This document shows positions 15,405 to 26,334 of a stretch of 64,000 bases of DNA, piece by piece. The notes beneath the pieces are model-generated. The model worked only from the letters and a program-made list of their open reading frames with translations, was not told where the DNA came from and made no database searches. The translations under genes and the position numbers were made by a program. Numbering within the stretch: the first letter of the stretch is position 1; the number at the start of each line of letters is the position of its first letter. The DNA is taken from positions 62,001 through 126,000 of the forward strand of contig NZ_JRHO01000009.1 of the NCBI RefSeq assembly GCF_000765475.1. Reading direction: 5' to 3'. The stretch is from Methanococcoides methylutens. Lineage in GTDB: Archaea > Halobacteriota > Methanosarcinia > Methanosarcinales > Methanosarcinaceae.

Positions 15405-17177
15405 TCAATGCGACCTGCGTATATAAAAATATGCAATAAGCGGGACTATGGAAAGTATACCTGCTATCGTGGCAAATGCGGATAACAGGAAGCTGGCATG
15501 TCCTCCTCTTGAGAGAGGTTCATTATCGTTTTTGATGTTCTCACTTTCCATGTTTATTTCAGCTGGTTCAAGTGAGTAAACATAAAGCTTCTCAACGTTC
15601 GATCTGAATGTGCCCTGAATATCATCTTCATCGGTGTAGGAAACCATTGTAGGTGGCAGGTCAATGATGCCTTCTTCCTGTGCAAGCACTTTATAGGTGA
15701 GACGTTTTTCATCTCCTGCTTCAAGTGGCCCTTCCCAGCCTTTCTCTCCGCTAATAAATTTGAATCCTGCGGGGATCTCCTCCGTAAAAGAGACTTCAAC
15801 ATCGATCAAGCCGATGTTTGTGATAGTTACTGTTACGTCGACTTCTTCTCCTGTGTAAATATCACTGAGGCTAACATCTTTTTCGACCTCGAGTAATGCT
15901 CCTTCAACATCGATGGTCACTGCAGCGCCATCCGATACAACGTCATAAGTTTCCCCTTGCGAGTACCAGCTTGCAACTGCAGGTCCCAGTTCATATGTCC
16001 CGGCGACTGTAGGCAATGCCTTGTATCGTATATTCTCTGATCTTCCGGCACCAATGAATACTGTCCAGTCCGCTGATTCAATTCCTATGGGCATGAAAGT
16101 TGAAGGTATCGGATCATGTATGTTAACTTCATGTCCAATACTTGCATTGTTGTAGACCACCATCTCGACGATGATCTTTCTTTTAGTTTTGTCCTCTTCT
16201 GTTAGAAGATGTGTATCAATTGTTTTTTCAATAGATATGTACGGTTCCACAATGGTTTGTGCTGTGGTGGAATTTTGGTAGTTGTTTCCCTTATAGGCAT
16301 AACCGTCAACGTTCACATCGATCACTATGTTCTCTTTTTCCGGTGTTTCGGGTAATGTGAGATTGACGGGTATCTTGTGAATTTTCAATGTATCAAGCAT
16401 TGCAAGCTCGTAGCTTACCGGATCAAGTTGTACGCTGCTGGAAGAGGCTGTGACGGTGATCCCCCTTGCAGGGATCGTTCCTGTGTTCTTCAGGTATATC
16501 TCAAAAGAAGCAGGCATGTTCGGGGAATATTGATCTCCAAGGGCGTTGATTTCTATTTTGAAGTCCGGTTCGCCAGGCTGGTATGGCTGTAAATTTATCT
16601 CCTTGCTGTCCCTGTCGATGTATCTGACCCTTAACAGTATTTCATCGGAATACTTTTTGTAGGCATTTGTTTCGTACTCATCAACATACGTTTTTCCATC
16701 AATTGTAACTTTTATTGTGGCAATGGTATCGCTCACATTGAGCAATTTGATGATGGCATTGTCTACCTGTGTCGTGTCTTCGACTGCGAGCTTCCGGCTC
16801 TCAGATGGTATCCAGACAAGTTCGTATTCGTGAAGGTACAGTTCGAGAGTAACCTTTGTTCTGTCAATTGAAAGTGTTCTTACCGTGAGGTCCTTGTCAT
16901 GGACGAACTCATTATTAAGCGAATCATCTGCAAAGAAGCTCTTTTGGAATTCCCCGTCAACGTATAGAAGTAATGTGGCGGAAAAACCGTCTTCCTCTTC
17001 ATTGATCTCATGGAGCTTGACGGTGTATTTCTCTGCGGATGCCCTGTCTCCTGTTGCAAGATCAAAGACCCCCTGATGCACCCAGATCTCCTCATACTGG
17101 AATTCATCTGCAGCGGAGGATATGCCTGTTAAAAAAAGGACCATCAGGATTGCAAGAGCAATACGCTTTAAATACAT
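15405..17177 (-). CDS. Large membrane-anchored surface protein with CARDB/DUF11-like domains
   Basis: I choose ATG 17177 (MYLKRIALAILMVLFLTGISSAA), a clean signal peptide; a longer frame from 17276 adds 33 residues that lie upstream of the likely transcription start. The 590-residue product has an N-terminal mixed beta region (residues 25-230), CARDB-like units (from ALGDQYSPNMPASFEIYLKNTG on), a DUF11-like unit (YTGEEVDVTVTITNIGLIDVEV), and a C-terminal membrane helix followed by RRSH. It is probably held in the cytoplasmic membrane with the bulk outside. Role unknown; BatD-like or S-layer-associated proteins share this architecture. Confidence 0.7.
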   Translation of the reverse strand: MYLKRIALAILMVLFLTGISSAADEFQYEEIWVHQGVFDLATGDRASAEKYTVKLHEINEEEDGFSATLLLYVDGEFQKSFFADDSLNNEFVHDKDLTVRTLSIDRTKVTLELYLHEYELVWIPSESRKLAVEDTTQVDNAIIKLLNVSDTIATIKVTIDGKTYVDEYETNAYKKYSDEILLRVRYIDRDSKEINLQPYQPGEPDFKIEINALGDQYSPNMPASFEIYLKNTGTIPARGITVTASSSSVQLDPVSYELAMLDTLKIHKIPVNLTLPETPEKENIVIDVNVDGYAYKGNNYQNSTTAQTIVEPYISIEKTIDTHLLTEEDKTKRKIIVEMVVYNNASIGHEVNIHDPIPSTFMPIGIESADWTVFIGAGRSENIRYKALPTVAGTYELGPAVASWYSQGETYDVVSDGAAVTIDVEGALLEVEKDVSLSDIYTGEEVDVTVTITNIGLIDVEVSFTEEIPAGFKFISGEKGWEGPLEAGDEKRLTYKVLAQEEGIIDLPPTMVSYTDEDDIQGTFRSNVEKLYVYSLEPAEINMESENIKNDNEPLSRGGHASFLLSAFATIAGILSIVPLIAYFYIRRSH

Positions 17178-17206
17178 TAGCCATTTTTTATGTGGCTCAT
17201 AGCGTT

Positions 17207-17218
17207 TAAATATACCGT
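17207..17218 (-). promoter_or_regulatory. TATA box for the surface protein gene
   Basis: On the minus strand GGTATATTTAAACG covers this position, about 35 bases before ATG 17177. It supports that start over the one at 17276, which would lie upstream of the promoter. Confidence 0.5.
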
Positions 17219-17305
17219 TCAGAGTGTCGATGGTTGCACGTCCTTTTGAGCATATACTCTCATCCTTCAACAACATTTAATTAGAGGACATTCATTACCT
17301 AAACT

Positions 17306-18453: not shown

Positions 18454-18460
18454 TCTTTGA

Positions 18461-18497
18461 GATGGAGTCTTTTGGTTCCATCCATTTTTTATTTCTA
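18461..18497 (+). terminator. Hairpin terminator after the MazG-like gene
   Basis: GATGGA at 18461-18466 pairs with TCCATC at 18477-18482, followed by ATTTTTTATTTC. The large protease gene converges from the other side. Confidence 0.45.
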
Positions 18498-18564
18498 CGG
18501 ATTTGTTCAAAAAGTCTCATTATAGCTTAAAGATCTAAAAAATAAAGAAGATAAAGGAAGAATC

Positions 18565-21500
18565 TCAGTTCTTCCTTTTCCGGAACAGACAGACAAATTC
18601 CAAAATAAACACAGATGCGAGCATAGTAAATCCTGGGATACCTTTTGCTTCACTTGCAGGAAGCTCCTCTCCTGAGGATTCAGTATTATTAACAGTACTG
18701 AGCTTTCCATCTGCTGGATCCGTATTGTCTGTTAAAGGTTTATCATCCATATCCGCTGCAATAGCAAATGGTGAGAAGCCAGGGGTTTTAGCCTCAAAGT
18801 AAATATATCCCTCATCTTCATCGACCCTGGTTGTAGAAAGCCGGGTCCATTCTCCCTCACTATAATGGTATAATGAAATGGCAGATGTCTCAATTCCATT
18901 TTCTGAGAGCCATTGCTTACTTACCCTGAAGCCTATGACAGCATCTTCTATCTTATCATCACCAAATGCAGCATTACCGACCCAGATGTTCATGTTCTGA
19001 TACACGATGCCCGGAGCCTGTGAATCTACAAGCTTTGAAGTATCTTTTAAGACCTCAATAAGTGTGCTGATCTGACCTGCATTGGCTACTCCCTTAAACT
19101 GAACATAACCGATGTGGCATTTTTCTTCATTGAATTCGTATCTGGACAACTCTCCTGCAACAACATTAGAAGCTGCAGCATCTTTCACAAGAATGTTCTC
19201 AAAAGCTTCACCGGTAGCACCGCCACCACCGCCACCGCTACTAGTGGATTTGCTAGCAGGGGATTTATTATCACCAATATCAGTAATTTTCAACGCAGTT
19301 GACACTTCTTCAGACCATGCACCATCGTTATCCTGTACACTGAAGTAAATGGTGTGTGTACCGACTGAAAGACTGGATGTGCTGAAATTAGCAGAAGTGT
19401 TCAACTGACCGTCAAGACTGGATGTCCAGTTGTAGGCTACAATTGTACCATCTGAATCTGTTCCGGATCCATTGAATATTACTGTCACACCTTCAGGGCT
19501 TCCACCCATTGCAATCGGGCCAATTGTTGCAATAGGCGCTACGTTTGGTTTCACATAGATGGATTCTGTAAATGGATAAAATCTTAAATTTGAACTATTG
19601 TCTGCAATTCTCAATGCAATATTTTCTGTTAGATACAAGCTTTTGCCACTTGATAAGTATAGATATCCAGATAACTCCATTGTTATCGTTTGGTCATCAA
19701 CAGAAGAAACTGCTAACCTTCCAAATCTGTCATCCACATTAATTTCTATAACTTCTTCAGACAATTGCCAGACACCATCAATAATTATGAAATTGCCTGA
19801 CTGATTAACCTCATCTACATGGAGCATCAATGTAAGAATATCACTCTCATTTAGCATATCCTGCTCGTAATACCATGTCTTATCTGACGTAGTTGCATTA
19901 GTACTTGCATTAATAATTGTGTCATCAACGAACGTACCATTCCTGGTCAACTCGAGCCAGACCTTTTCACCATTAACATCGATTTCCTTTGGAGTGACCA
20001 CATACCCTTCTCCGAGATTTAGTGAATCACCAATTCCGATTATATTAATGCTATTATCATCGATTATAAGTTTGGTAAGGATAGATGCATTGGTGATTGG
20101 AATATACTGTTCACCCAAAAATCCAATCTTTTCATATGTAAAATCCATTAATGGATCAGATTCCATCCTGAAGTCGAATTGTGGTTGAATGCCCGGGACT
20201 ATGGTAGTATTATAGATAAGCTCTCCTGGATCAGCATCTAGCATTCTATCCATGTTATCTACTCCGTGAACAGTCAGCACTTCGGATGTAGCATTATTAT
20301 CAAGATCATACCAGAAGCCAGCAAATGAATTTGCATTCCAGATATAAGTTTTATCTGAAGACGGTGAATCAATGACTGTTCCACGTACTTCATAGATACC
20401 TGATTCAGTTGGCTTCTTCTTTAAGTAGAACCTCAATGATGGATCGTCTGCAACCCGAAATTCAAAGTTATCCATTAAATTATTAGTACTGCCGGCATCC
20501 AGAACTATATCCTCATCAAGTTCCATTGTGAGAGTAGTATCATTGACAGAAGACACGACCATCTGACCGTATTTATCATCTGCATTAATTTCTGTTACCT
20601 GGTCAGATATCTGCCAGATATCGCCCAAAATTACACAAGGATCATCCTGCCCATATACTGTACTCACATGGATCATCAAGGTAACAACATCCTCCTCACC
20701 AGACATGTCCTGCATGCAATACCAGGTCCTGTCTGACGTAGGTTGACTAAAGCTTGCATTAATAATAGTGTCATCCACGAACGTCCCATTCTTGGTCAAC
20801 TCGAGCCAGACCTTTTCACCATCAACATCAATCTGCCTTGGAGTGATTGCATATCCCTCTTGAAGTTCAAGTAACTGCCCGGTTCTTAAGGTATATGCAT
20901 CGTCGTTGTCCGCAAGCAGTTTTGCAAGCTTATCTGGTGTATTATTCAATGGGACATACTCTTCACCAAATAATATCAACAATGGATACTCACTAGAATA
21001 ACCCATGAATTCGACTTCTTGGATTGTTGTTGTATAGACAAGACCTCCTTGTCCAATTGTCCTGTCTGAGACAAATGATCCGCCGTAAATTCTCAAAGTT
21101 TCTGTTGATATATTATCATCAATATCATAGTAGAATCCAGGGAAATCTACTGCAGACAGTTCTAAGAAATCCGTATCTTGTTGACCAATAATATCATCAA
21201 GGTCAGTGCCGCTAAACACGGGGCTCCTGAGTTCATGCATTTCTTCAACGATTTGTCCATTTGAAATTAGATGATCTGATAAGGTATCAAAGAACACTGG
21301 GGTATAGATTCCGTGGTTTACATAAAAAGACTGGATTATCTCGTTGATATGTGGAGTTCCATCGCTCAAGTCTCCGTTGTTGTCATCGACTATCAATATA
21401 GCCTCAAGAAATTCCTGGAAGTTCTGAGGTTCGAGCTTCATGGCTCTGATTATCAGTTCGTCTGCAAGTTCAGCACCCAGAGCCTCCCTCATATCCCACA

Positions 21501-23616
21501 TGGCACCTGATACTATAAGGCCATCATAATGAACCTCTCCCATGATATCAGAAGGATATTTATTGTTGTTATTGAGATTTGTGATGCCTTCTGTATCGCC
21601 AACACAGAATTCTTCTGAGTTAATGGGATCATTGTTGATCGTAGACCCAAAATAATCCGCCCATCCTTCATTGAGGGCACCCGATTCATCCCTATAAGGC
21701 AGATATGTTGTATAGATATGATCGACAACGCAGTGTGTGTACTCATGGTATACAACATCGCTAAGGATGGCGAAAGACTCATAGTATTCGTTCCCTCCAT
21801 AGAAATATATGTCCGTCCCATCTGACATTGCATTCCCACTATATGACCCATACTCCACGGTTGCAATGGTCTGGTAGTCCATGGAATTTATGTCAAAGGG
21901 GCTGCCTTTTGTGAAGTAGTCGTGGATTACATTGACATGGTAGAAAACAGTTGACTCCTCTCTCTTGTCGGATGTATCCATATCAGCCCAGTTCCAGTTG
22001 TATGTTGGTGAGGTCAGGTTGAATTCCAGGTACGTATCTTCCTGATCCTCGTTGACAACCTTCACATAGGGACCACTAAGTTCTGAATATATGGTTGCGT
22101 TCTCTCTCAGGTTGGTGATGTTGTAATATCCATTTTTGTCGGTGGTTGTTAAGGGAGAGGATAATGTCTCAGCTTGAACACTGAATCCACTTAGGTTCCA
22201 GTTCCCATTTAAATCCTCAAGATCATCTGAGAACACCATTCCACTATCACTGGTCACTGTAATGTTGTCTGCATAAAATCCGTTTTTAGAAACACCAAGA
22301 TCAGTATCATACAAGAATCCGATCCATGCCTGTTTCCCATCCCAGTCTGATATGTCTATGGATTTATCTGTCCATGAGGTCTGATATCCTGTATAATTTG
22401 CAAGATTGGTGAAATTATTCCCATCTTCTGAAATGATCACATATGCATAATCATAATTGTATTCAATCTCATACTTTGTGCTGAAATTAAGTTTGGAATT
22501 GACTGCACCGGTAAGGTCAATGGGTTCAATTGTTATTGCAGAATTTTCCAGATAGTCTCCACGCCCTGAATAGAGCACCCTCTTCGGATCTCCAATGATT
22601 AATGATATTGTCTGGTTCCAGAAAGGCACATCAACTGGATCCTGCGAGGGGTATTCCTGATATATCCTTCCTGTTACGTTGCCTTCAATGCTGTATGAAA
22701 ATATCTTATCATATTTGTACAATACATTTCCGGTGGTTGCATCTACAAAATATGTCCATGAGCTTAAAGGCTCTTTAATGGTAGACAGATCGACCATATA
22801 CACAAGATGGTACTTATTGGCATCTTCTATCTCCACCGGATAGATCACCAGTGATATGTCCTTTGTTTTGATAGTTTTTGTCTGTGGGGTGGACTTTCCG
22901 GACATTTCACTGAGTGAGATCGAACTCAATGGTATGGAAGGACCTGTGACCTCGATCCCGAGATCATCACTTATTATGGAAAGTGCTTCTGCCTCGGTAA
23001 TTGTGGGTTTTGTTGGTGCTGTTATGTCCTGAAAGCTGTTTGAATCCACAGCTACGACCTTCCCATCATTAACTGTGATTCCTACCCTTGAGGAGTATAC
23101 AGGAATTCCCTCATATGACTGCTGATATACGATATTGCTAATTCCGTTCTTTCTTTCATATAGGGATGTGTCATGATCTTCTTTTACTAACTCGATCTCA
23201 GAAGGTTCAAGACCGAATATCTGTTCGTTTTCAAGAATAAAGTTCCTGACCAGAGATTCTGTTATCTGTTCAGTTTGAATAAAAGATGTAGATGAGAATT
23301 GATAATTTTCCTGATCTGATGGAAGAAGTTCTATGCTGCCTCCGATCATTCTATTTGGCAGGTTTGAGTCTTTGTCTGTTGAAACTAGCCAATTTTCACC
23401 GTATTTTGCAGTAAATAGTTCTTCCTTGCTGGAAGCAGATTGATCATTTATAAGATAATTAGTAACGACTTCATCCTGTGAAGTGTATAGTTTATCACCG
23501 TCAGTATCGTAATGGTATTGCTGCAGGGTATCAAATTCAGAATTGTTATTTTCATCAGCAATTGCATTTGTAGATAATATAACTATAAATAATAATACTA
23601 ATAATATTTTATTCAT
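18565..23616 (-). CDS. Giant secreted metalloprotease with S-layer domains and PGF anchor
   Basis: This 1683-residue protein starts at ATG 23616 (MNKILLVLLFIVIL, signal peptide); TTG 23631 adds five residues. Order: FTP/PepSY-type propeptide (about 110-310); a MAM or immune-inhibitor-like beta region (350-500); a gluzincin catalytic domain with H624-E-Y-T-H628 and NEGWADY (E650), as in M36/M4 peptidases; two repeats of a Methanosarcina-type S-layer duplication domain, GFYYDIDDN at 827 and GFWYDLDNN at 1100; a PKD-like domain (1360-1450); a Ser/Gly linker; a PGF-pre-PGF domain (1473-1621); and IPGFTML, a hydrophobic stretch and RKRKN at the end. It probably sits in or on the S-layer. Many Asn-X-Ser/Thr sites suggest glycosylation. 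Confidence 0.85.
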   Translation of the reverse strand: MNKILLVLLFIVILSTNAIADENNNSEFDTLQQYHYDTDGDKLYTSQDEVVTNYLINDQSASSKEELFTAKYGENWLVSTDKDSNLPNRMIGGSIELLPSDQENYQFSSTSFIQTEQITESLVRNFILENEQIFGLEPSEIELVKEDHDTSLYERKNGISNIVYQQSYEGIPVYSSRVGITVNDGKVVAVDSNSFQDITAPTKPTITEAEALSIISDDLGIEVTGPSIPLSSISLSEMSGKSTPQTKTIKTKDISLVIYPVEIEDANKYHLVYMVDLSTIKEPLSSWTYFVDATTGNVLYKYDKIFSYSIEGNVTGRIYQEYPSQDPVDVPFWNQTISLIIGDPKRVLYSGRGDYLENSAITIEPIDLTGAVNSKLNFSTKYEIEYNYDYAYVIISEDGNNFTNLANYTGYQTSWTDKSIDISDWDGKQAWIGFLYDTDLGVSKNGFYADNITVTSDSGMVFSDDLEDLNGNWNLSGFSVQAETLSSPLTTTDKNGYYNITNLRENATIYSELSGPYVKVVNEDQEDTYLEFNLTSPTYNWNWADMDTSDKREESTVFYHVNVIHDYFTKGSPFDINSMDYQTIATVEYGSYSGNAMSDGTDIYFYGGNEYYESFAILSDVVYHEYTHCVVDHIYTTYLPYRDESGALNEGWADYFGSTINNDPINSEEFCVGDTEGITNLNNNNKYPSDIMGEVHYDGLIVSGAMWDMREALGAELADELIIRAMKLEPQNFQEFLEAILIVDDNNGDLSDGTPHINEIIQSFYVNHGIYTPVFFDTLSDHLISNGQIVEEMHELRSPVFSGTDLDDIIGQQDTDFLELSAVDFPGFYYDIDDNISTETLRIYGGSFVSDRTIGQGGLVYTTTIQEVEFMGYSSEYPLLILFGEEYVPLNNTPDKLAKLLADNDDAYTLRTGQLLELQEGYAITPRQIDVDGEKVWLELTKNGTFVDDTIINASFSQPTSDRTWYCMQDMSGEEDVVTLMIHVSTVYGQDDPCVILGDIWQISDQVTEINADDKYGQMVVSSVNDTTLTMELDEDIVLDAGSTNNLMDNFEFRVADDPSLRFYLKKKPTESGIYEVRGTVIDSPSSDKTYIWNANSFAGFWYDLDNNATSEVLTVHGVDNMDRMLDADPGELIYNTTIVPGIQPQFDFRMESDPLMDFTYEKIGFLGEQYIPITNASILTKLIIDDNSINIIGIGDSLNLGEGYVVTPKEIDVNGEKVWLELTRNGTFVDDTIINASTNATTSDKTWYYEQDMLNESDILTLMLHVDEVNQSGNFIIIDGVWQLSEEVIEINVDDRFGRLAVSSVDDQTITMELSGYLYLSSGKSLYLTENIALRIADNSSNLRFYPFTESIYVKPNVAPIATIGPIAMGGSPEGVTVIFNGSGTDSDGTIVAYNWTSSLDGQLNTSANFSTSSLSVGTHTIYFSVQDNDGAWSEEVSTALKITDIGDNKSPASKSTSSGGGGGGATGEAFENILVKDAAASNVVAGELSRYEFNEEKCHIGYVQFKGVANAGQISTLIEVLKDTSKLVDSQAPGIVYQNMNIWVGNAAFGDDKIEDAVIGFRVSKQWLSENGIETSAISLYHYSEGEWTRLSTTRVDEDEGYIYFEAKTPGFSPFAIAADMDDKPLTDNTDPADGKLSTVNNTESSGEELPASEAKGIPGFTMLASVFILEFVCLFRKRKN
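19944..19973. repeat. Repeat inside the S-layer domains, copy A
   Basis: These 30 bases are identical to 20793-20822, 849 bases away. The flanks are also similar: both encode GEKVWLELT(K/R)NGTFVDDTI in the two S-layer domains. The identity at DNA level indicates a recent duplication or gene conversion within the protease gene. Confidence 0.8.
20793..20822. repeat. Repeat inside the S-layer domains, copy B
   Basis: This is the second copy of the 30-base identical block (see 19944-19973), in the first S-layer domain of the protease. Confidence 0.8.
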
Positions 23617-23880
23617 GTCCTGAAATTTCAAGTTATATTATTTAACTATATACATAATTGCAGGAACATGTTAATTTTTGACAAAGTATATGATTGTTGG
23701 ATAACCCTTTGAGCATTTATCTGTATTTTTCAGTAATTCCCTGATTCTGCAGAAATTGTTGTGAATAAATGAGTGAGATTTTCTCACTTTTTCTTCTTTT
23801 GCCACGTTGAATCATGCTTATATATGTTCAGCTGTTTGATAGCAATTATATAGGTCACTATTATTGGAACTTCATCAGAC

Positions 23881-26334
23881 ATGACTGCTAATACAATGAT
23901 TAAAAAACCTGAACTTCTGGCTCCTGCAGGCAACTGGGAATCTTTCGTAGCTGCTGTGGAAAACGGCGCAGATGCTGTCTATCTTGGTGCGAAGACCCTG
24001 GGTGCAAGGGCTTATGCCGGTAATTTCACCCTTGAAGAGATACAGGAAGCTATCGATATTGCACATCTTCGCGGTGTCAGAGTCTTTGTTACGGTAAATA
24101 CTCTGGTTAAGGATGAAGAGATCGGAAGAGCTGCGAAAATGCTGTGTTCCCTGAGCGAATACGGTGCAGATGCTGTCATTGTCCAGGATATCGGTTTGCT
24201 TTCCCTTGCAAAAGAGCTCGTTCCTGAACTTCCGATACACGCAAGCACCCAGATGACCATTCATAATAGTGAAGGCGTACGTTTTCTCGAAGAACTGGGT
24301 GTCAAAAGGGTCGTGCTTGCAAGGGAAATGTCCCTTGAGGAGATAAAGACAGTAAAGCAGGCTAGCAACATCGAGATCGAAACCTTTGTTCATGGAGCAC
24401 TTTGCATCTCCTATTCAGGCCAATGTCTTCTTAGCAGTATGATCGGAGGCAGGAGTGGTAATCGTGGGCATTGTGCCCAGCCCTGCAGGAAGATGTACGA
24501 ACTGGAAAAGGACGGTGAGCTGATCGATACCGATGGGCCTTATCTATTGAGTCCCAAAGACCTCAACACAACAGAAATGCTGCCACAGCTGATCGAAGCA
24601 GGTGTGGATTCCTTCAAGATAGAAGGCAGGATGAAAAGGCCTGAATATGTGGCAGGTGTCGTGAGCACATACAGGCGTCTGATCGATCGCTACATGGCTG
24701 ATCCGGATTCGTATTTTGTATCTCCTGAGGAGTCCCTTGTACTTGAACAGCTTTTCAACAGGGAATTCACTGACGTTTATCTTGAAGGTACATCAAGGAC
24801 AGGCATGATGAGCCGCGAACAACCATACAATCGTGGTGTGGTCGCAGGTACTGTTGTGGGCTACAACAGCGATGACAGGCGTATCATAGTAGAGCTTTCC
24901 ACCGAACTGGAATTAGGTGACGGTATCGGTGCTGAGGGGCTGGAAAATGCAGGCGAGAACATCACGCGCATGGTTCTGGACGGCAAAGAAGTTGATTCCG
25001 GTACAAAAGGTGATGTTGTTGAGATCCCGTTCTTTGAAAAGGTTCGTTCAGGGTGTTTTATCTACAGGACCATGGACCGGTCCTTAATGGACTCGCTGAA
25101 AAAGACATTCACATCTCCAAAGCCTATTCGGAAAGTGCCTGTTAGTCTCCGGTCAGAGGTCGCTGCAGGTTCAGTATTGCATCTGGAAATGGTGGATGCT
25201 GATGGCAATGCGGTGTCTGTGGATTCTGATTATGTCGTTGAGGTCGCCCAGAAGAAACCGACAACCCAAGAGCAGGTCATCCAGCAGCTCTCAAAATTAG
25301 GCAATTCTGTTTTTGAGCCACTTGACATGGATGTGAATGTTACGGGAGATGTGTTCATCCCCATAAGGGCACTTAACGATATCAGGAACCTGGCAGTTTC
25401 ACAGCTGGAATCTGCAAGGATAGAAAAAGGGCGACGTAACCCAAAAGACAGCTGTAAAGCTCCTGATGTTGCCTGTGAGGAAGTGCATCCGGATAAGACC
25501 TTGCTGGTTGTAAGTGTTGATGATTCCCGGAGACTTGAGGGCGCTATTGCTGGTGGTGCTGATGTCATCTATGTCGGAGGGGAAGTTTTCAGGGGTCGCG
25601 AACCTATGGACATGAAGGAAGCCTTCGAGAAGTGCAGAAGTGAGGGTCGAAAGATCTACGTGAACACCCCGAAGATCGTATCGGATGAAGATATGGGGCA
25701 TGTGCAGGAAACACTCAAATTTGCAAAGGAGATTGGTTTTGATGGTGCAGTGGTCTCTAACTACGGTACATTCAGGCTTGCAAAAGAAGCAGGTATGAAT
25801 GTGGTCGCTGATAGTCCGATGAATGTGTTCAATATGAATTCATATGCATCCATGAAGCAGCTTGGTGCAGGTTCGGTGGTATTGTCCCCGGAAATGTCAT
25901 TGTCCCAGGTAGAGGATGTCGCACAATGTGGCTCTGTGGAGTGCATTGTTCACGGAAGGCAGGAGGTCATGGAATCACGTTACTGTATGCTCGGTGACCT
26001 GTTCAGCACAGGGGCAGGATGTTCCCGCATGTGCGAGGATGGAAAGTTCGAGCTTTATGATGAGAAAGAGTATTGTTTCCCGATTATCATGGACAACGAC
26101 TGCAGGATGCATGTGCTGAACTCAAAAGAGCTGTGCATGATCGAGAGCATTGGTAAACTTGTCAAAGCAGGTGTGGCAGCGGTGAGGATCGAGGCAAGGA
26201 CAATGGATGCCTTGAAGGTGAAAAAGGTCACACAACGCTATCGTGTTGCTCTGGACGGTAAAAAGAAGGCTGGCAAATGCAAGGATATTACTGATGGCTA
26301 TACTTCAGGCCATTACATGAGGGGAGTTCTATGA
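23881..26334 (+). CDS. Peptidase U32 family protein, double-length
   Basis: This 817-residue protein begins MTANTMIKKPELLAPAGNWESF. The U32 signature is FVHGALCISYSGQCLLSSMIGGRSGNRG, split here over residues 176-203, with cysteines CAQPC. The second half repeats the barrel (LLVVSVDDSRRLEGAIAGGADVIYVGG) and a degenerate signature ECIVHGRQEVMESRYCMLGD. U32 relatives (RlhA, TrhP) hydroxylate RNA using prephenate-derived chemistry and iron-sulfur clusters, so an RNA-modification role is as likely as proteolysis. It overlaps the next gene by 4 bases (ATGA). Confidence 0.85.
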   Translation: MTANTMIKKPELLAPAGNWESFVAAVENGADAVYLGAKTLGARAYAGNFTLEEIQEAIDIAHLRGVRVFVTVNTLVKDEEIGRAAKMLCSLSEYGADAVIVQDIGLLSLAKELVPELPIHASTQMTIHNSEGVRFLEELGVKRVVLAREMSLEEIKTVKQASNIEIETFVHGALCISYSGQCLLSSMIGGRSGNRGHCAQPCRKMYELEKDGELIDTDGPYLLSPKDLNTTEMLPQLIEAGVDSFKIEGRMKRPEYVAGVVSTYRRLIDRYMADPDSYFVSPEESLVLEQLFNREFTDVYLEGTSRTGMMSREQPYNRGVVAGTVVGYNSDDRRIIVELSTELELGDGIGAEGLENAGENITRMVLDGKEVDSGTKGDVVEIPFFEKVRSGCFIYRTMDRSLMDSLKKTFTSPKPIRKVPVSLRSEVAAGSVLHLEMVDADGNAVSVDSDYVVEVAQKKPTTQEQVIQQLSKLGNSVFEPLDMDVNVTGDVFIPIRALNDIRNLAVSQLESARIEKGRRNPKDSCKAPDVACEEVHPDKTLLVVSVDDSRRLEGAIAGGADVIYVGGEVFRGREPMDMKEAFEKCRSEGRKIYVNTPKIVSDEDMGHVQETLKFAKEIGFDGAVVSNYGTFRLAKEAGMNVVADSPMNVFNMNSYASMKQLGAGSVVLSPEMSLSQVEDVAQCGSVECIVHGRQEVMESRYCMLGDLFSTGAGCSRMCEDGKFELYDEKEYCFPIIMDNDCRMHVLNSKELCMIESIGKLVKAGVAAVRIEARTMDALKVKKVTQRYRVALDGKKKAGKCKDITDGYTSGHYMRGVL

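Follow-up and report, generated by a model that had tools for sequence, protein, structure and literature searches.

The window, which was the whole 64,000-nucleotide stretch of Methanococcoides methylutens DNA analysed here, contained an uninterrupted minus-strand frame at 18565–23616. The frame encodes 1683 residues and, as the original prediction had stated, unites in one chain a protease and two S-layer domains, which follow it and are referred to as tiles R1 and R2. The features of the gene and its surroundings were as follows.

18456–23895, no strand: insertion of 5.44 kb that four sister species lack; their colinearity with the window ends at 18455 and resumes at 23896
18565–23616, minus: whole protease–tile gene, 1683 residues; single unbroken frame, ATG at 23616
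23557–23616, minus: putative signal peptide, about residues 1–20, read from the sequence as a hydrophobic N-terminus, MNKILLVLLFIVILSTNAIA
22714–23151, minus: thermolysin-type propeptide, FTP (residues 156–192) and PepSY-like (residues 263–301); profiles and fold match
22174–22578, minus: InhA-like MAM domain, residues 347–481, close to where the catalytic part begins; PF20773 and fold match
21292–22161, minus: M4-type catalytic domain, residues 486–775, with H624, E625, H628, E650, D654 and H696; profiles and alignment
20410–21168, minus: S-layer tile R1, residues 817–1069; profiles and match to 3u2g
19561–20334, minus: S-layer tile R2, residues 1095–1352; profiles and high-confidence model
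19297–19545, minus: PKD domain, residues 1358–1440; profile below cut-off, PKD folds at Z of about 11–12
18757–19206, minus: PGF-pre-PGF domain, residues 1471–1620; TIGR04213
18568–18651, minus: C-terminal PGF-like anchor, residues 1656–1683; PGF, hydrophobic stretch and RKRKN

The gap between hisF and a U32 peptidase gene was about 335 bp in the sister species G025, G024, G019 and G018, and 5.76 kb here. Besides the protease–tile gene and the region upstream of it, the inserted segment holds a new 5′ end for the U32 gene, whose first codons (23881–23895) are replaced relative to those of the sister species. The gene is a clean insertion within Methanococcoides. No near match was found in plasmids, and a plasmid origin was rejected. 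Beside hisF lay the gene for a 623-residue surface protein that contains CARDB and DUF11 domains (15405–17276, minus); it was kept in G020 and partly in other sisters.

Among 111 genomes of the family, the full protein was present elsewhere only in G020 of the same genus, with 96% identity, which ruled out a sequencing error as the source of the fusion. Because the domain order was kept at this identity with a dN/dS of 0.30, it is not a product of chance. By region, the dN/dS between the two genomes was 0.25 for the catalytic part, 0 for the MAM domain (no amino-acid change), and 0.37 and 0.62 for the two tiles, all based on few changes, and these values suggest that the gene is under purifying selection.

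The N-terminal part contained two elements that were absent from the original description, a propeptide and a MAM domain. The FTP profile matched at 27.7 bits (cut-off 21), the PepSY match was under its cut-off, and the modelled propeptide was aligned with that of vibriolysin MCP-02 (Z 11.2, 160 residues, r.m.s.d. 3.3). The MAM domain matched PF20773 at 87.2 bits (cut-off 26.9). Its nearest solved structure by sequence was immune inhibitor A, and its model was well matched to Bacillus InhA2 (PDB code 4yu6) with a Z of 18.4 and an r.m.s.d. of 2.1 over 139 residues. However, InhA2 is an M6 protease in which the MAM-type domain follows the catalytic domain, whereas here it lies where an M4-type domain begins.

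The predicted HEYTH motif was located at residues 624–628, and was followed by ESGALNEGWADYF, which contained the third-ligand residue Glu650. The M4 hallmarks were all present: HExxH, the Glu of ESGA(L/I)NE, an Asp four residues on, and the catalytic His. Residues H624, E625, H628, E650, D654, and H696 are taken to correspond to the zinc and catalytic residues of thermolysin. All six were kept across a ten-sequence alignment, with the sole exception of E650, which was Lys in G009. The relative concerned (L049, G009:C12) was otherwise intact, and is possibly inactive or affected by a sequencing error. Between the two families named in the original prediction, M4 and M36, the M4 profile PF01447 matched at 31.1 bits (cut-off 22.4) while PF02128 (M36, fungalysin) gave no match to the protein. 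A relative, L048, matched PF02128 weakly at 21.9 bits against a cut-off of 23.3. PF02868 reached 23.6 bits, slightly under its cut-off of 24.4, and bacillolysin and thermolysin were the nearest solved structures to the catalytic part by sequence. In the AlphaFold model of residues 23–790, built from 10 sequences, the catalytic domain was unpredicted (pLDDT of about 25), although the MAM and propeptide folds were still recognisable. Since the propeptide is kept and the active-site residues are conserved, the protein has the architecture of a functional zymogen. The protease is apparently intact, secreted, and membrane-anchored.

At the C-terminal end, the PGF-pre-PGF domain matched TIGR04213 at 178 bits (cut-off 28), in agreement with the original prediction. 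The proposed PKD-like domain was supported by its modelled fold while the Pfam profiles fell slightly below their cut-offs. Likewise, the PGF signal was visible as a PGF motif, a hydrophobic stretch, and RKRKN, but the formal PGF-CTERM model gave no match. An archaeosortase A gene was present elsewhere in the genome (TIGR04125, 282 bits, cut-off 75).

Both tiles were above the profile cut-offs, with two stretches each in PF07752 (422 bits, cut-off 30) and TIGR01567 (364 bits, cut-off 121.9); the two Methanosarcina-type repeats proposed for residues 827–1360 were thereby confirmed. The MA0829 structure (PDB code 3u2g) matched residues 821–1064 with an E value of 3e-51. The model of residues 787–1640 had a mean pLDDT of 83.5 and a pTM of 0.63, and its R1 tile adopted the MA0829 fold, with a Z of 24.5 and an r.m.s.d. 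of 2.7 over 263 aligned residues. The overall plan, two tandem tiles of the same fold with a signal peptide and a C-terminal membrane tail, was shared with MA0829 (SlmA1) of Methanosarcina. However, the protein studied here has a protease before the tiles and the PKD and PGF-pre-PGF domains after them.

The tiles were compared with those of canonical proteins, defined as short two-repeat proteins resembling MA0829; the status of major S-layer protein has been demonstrated only for MA0829 and its Methanosarcina counterparts (PMC3361143). The motif VFQGxVDS, found in 27 of the 27 canonical repeats compared, was absent from both tiles and was replaced by VYGQDDPC in R1 and V--NQSGN in R2. The identity between R1 and R2 was 46%, compared with 74–98% in canonical pairs (87% in MA0829), and in most canonical proteins R1 and R2 were each other's closest relative in a tree of single tiles. 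Acidic residues (Asp and Glu) made up 17–19% of the tiles here and 21–27% of canonical tiles. Nevertheless, of the 50 positions with a conservation of 90% or more among canonical repeats, 34–37 were kept. Canonical-type proteins had 677 residues in G017, as in Mbur_1690, and 671 residues in G074, as in MA0829.

Other tile genes were also observed. In this genome, a single-repeat S-layer gene of 384 residues (L043:3476–4627; G000:C14:911475–912626, minus) stood where the sister-species locus encodes two repeats in 662–679 residues, and reflects either a real deletion or an assembly collapse of near-identical repeats; a similar frame was present in G069 (L225). Giant surface proteins of about nine tiles were encoded at L055:143–7693 (2517 residues) and L118:3–8687 (2895 residues).

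The original prediction held that the protease may be built into the S-layer lattice as a structural subunit, so that the tile pair would replace one canonical protomer. The secreted, anchored protease with two lattice-fold tiles was borne out, and the fold, the tandem arrangement, and the retained conserved positions are all as expected of a lattice protein. In addition, the tile pair grouped with the canonical tiles of the genus with a support of 0.87. The loss of VFQGxVDS, the divergence of the two tiles, and their lower acidity speak against integration, as does the geometry: about 300 residues with two folded domains separate tile 2 from the membrane tail, in place of the ~60-residue linker of canonical proteins (PMC3361143). 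Incorporation as a true subunit is possible but appears rather unlikely, and on these sequence comparisons a minor docked component seems to fit better. Since the tiles lack VFQGxVDS, are mutually diverged, and are less acidic, any docking may not be the same as integration into the lattice, and there may be no docking at all.

The protease without tiles, about 60% identical, was found in five Methanosarcina or related genomes, where an Ig/Glucodextran_B spacer follows the protease and precedes the same PGF-pre-PGF domain and tail. In two of these proteins, from KYL-1 (L062) and 2.H.T.1A.6 (L066), this identity extended across the propeptide, MAM, and catalytic domains, and the spacer of ~250 residues stood where the tile pair and PKD domain stand here. 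No tiles were found in more distant homologues from three genomes of family f5 (L114–L116); the more distant homologues carry beta-helix or Ig segments instead.

In the single-tile tree, R1 grouped at a support of 0.97 with its R1 counterparts in two proteins, one with a beta-helix (G025) and one with a beta-propeller (G021), and R2 with the R2 tiles of the same two proteins at a support of 1.0. This separate pairing of R1 with R1 tiles and R2 with R2 tiles shows that the tile pair travelled as a unit between unrelated passengers, its nearest relatives being in the beta-propeller and beta-helix proteins. The loss of VFQGxVDS in R2 was common to these relatives, and the sister proteins of the cassette also had several hundred residues after the tiles, a further difference from lattice-type proteins.

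Tiles were also joined to a protease of an unrelated class. A protein of 1416 residues in G155 (L154:121–4368) was composed of an S8 subtilisin domain, an Ig domain, one S-layer tile above the TIGR01567 cut-off, a PGF-pre-PGF domain, and a PGF tail, and an ortholog was present in G163 (L166:1501–5841). These subtilisin–tile–PGF-pre-PGF proteins, newly described here, are from another family, which is probably Methanoperedenaceae as judged indirectly. The tile was found in at least two genomes, a lower bound from about 30 long subtilisin frames examined among the matches listed; none was found in related proteins of eight sister genomes, where several stretches were incomplete at one end. No S-layer tiles were found among the long papain-type (C1) frames scanned. 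Because two unrelated protease classes bear tiles between the catalytic domain and the PGF-pre-PGF domain, tiles were joined to proteases at least twice.

S-layer domains are also carried by the multihaem cytochromes of ANME archaea, one type of which, MHC-B, has been described with an N-terminal ‘peptidase M6-like’ region (Chadwick et al., PMC9012536). As in the protein studied here, a functional domain is fused to an MA0829-type S-layer domain in MHC-A and MHC-B (PMC9012536), but these proteins serve electron transfer, lack a catalytic HExxH, and have a partial and more divergent S-layer domain. The MHC-B type frames L122–L127 (~2150 residues) contained 34–35 CxxCH motifs, an S-layer stretch, and an N-terminal region without HExxH. 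One scanned frame among them gave a weak InhA-like MAM match under the cut-off. MHC-B was therefore rejected as a protease–tile protein, the sole HExxH being at residue 1852 of L125 and the MAM match being below cut-off. The published ‘M6-like’ label may be explained by a MAM domain and not by a peptidase.

Since the relatives have a spacer at exactly the position of the tiles, the tiles may be a mere spacer, a rigid stalk that raises the protease off the membrane without specific contact with the S-layer. Their divergence and the beta-helix or Ig segments of the more distant homologues are consistent with such a role. However, a second protease gained a tile at the same place and the multihaem cytochromes of relatives bear S-layer domains, so that on this reading it would be mere coincidence that S-layer tiles, and not generic spacers, were used repeatedly; a pure spacer is accordingly viewed as improbable, to about the same degree as a lattice subunit. 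That the protease is inactive, and that the protein instead has a structural or adhesive role at the surface through its MAM domain and tiles, is very unlikely: the unchanged MAM domain of the two species, the MHC-B type proteins that combine a weak MAM match and an S-layer stretch without a catalytic HExxH, and the Lys at the third zinc ligand in G009 would fit it, but six of six catalytic and zinc residues are present here and the propeptide is retained.

The best reading is that the protein is a protease which is anchored in the membrane and docks at the S-layer, where it would serve nutrition or the maturation of surface proteins; its probable location is thus the cell surface, within or upon the protein coat. 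The same arrangement in a second, unrelated protease class speaks for a benefit of keeping a protease at the S-layer. The gene product would be exported as a zymogen, in which the FTP/PepSY propeptide would fold and inhibit the M4-type protease until its removal by cleavage, after which the mature chain would begin with the catalytic domain and its MAM insert. At the other end, the tail would anchor the protein to the membrane, probably once processed by archaeosortase A. The MA0829-type tile pair may dock the enzyme within or upon the S-layer, so that a few protease molecules would be kept at a constant height in the cell wall. In origin, a protease that elsewhere has an Ig spacer would have gained an accessory tile-pair cassette that further surface proteins in the genus already carried, and the fused gene would have entered the site that separates the U32 gene from the genes on the hisF side. 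The protein is presumed to be proteolytic, with nutrition and surface-protein processing both as candidate roles. Taken as a whole, this account of an exported zymogen, docked by its tiles and born by domain swapping, is held with modest confidence, slightly above an even chance.

Searches of open-licence papers turned up no description of a fusion between a protease and MA0829-type tiles. The only archaeal S-layer enzyme reported in a 2017 review is STABLE of Staphylothermus marinus (PMC5744192). STABLE is likewise a protease located at an archaeal S-layer, but it is a subtilisin bound as a separate protein on the tetrabrachion stalk of an unrelated S-layer (PMC5744192).

The passengers joined to tiles were two unrelated protease classes, beta-propellers, beta-helices, and multihaem cytochromes. 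It is a tentative and somewhat doubtful proposal that the S-layer tile is a general display chassis in Methanosarcinales, with catalytic and binding modules shuffled between species and the wall acting as an enzyme-bearing lattice. A natural cassette with unrelated passengers offers a lead for enzyme display on archaeal cells. Covalent protease–tile proteins with two or more origins would mean that the archaeal wall serves as a support for enzymes. They would also allow a direct test of the way in which extracellular protein is handled, or the cell surface matured, by methanogens and methane oxidisers.
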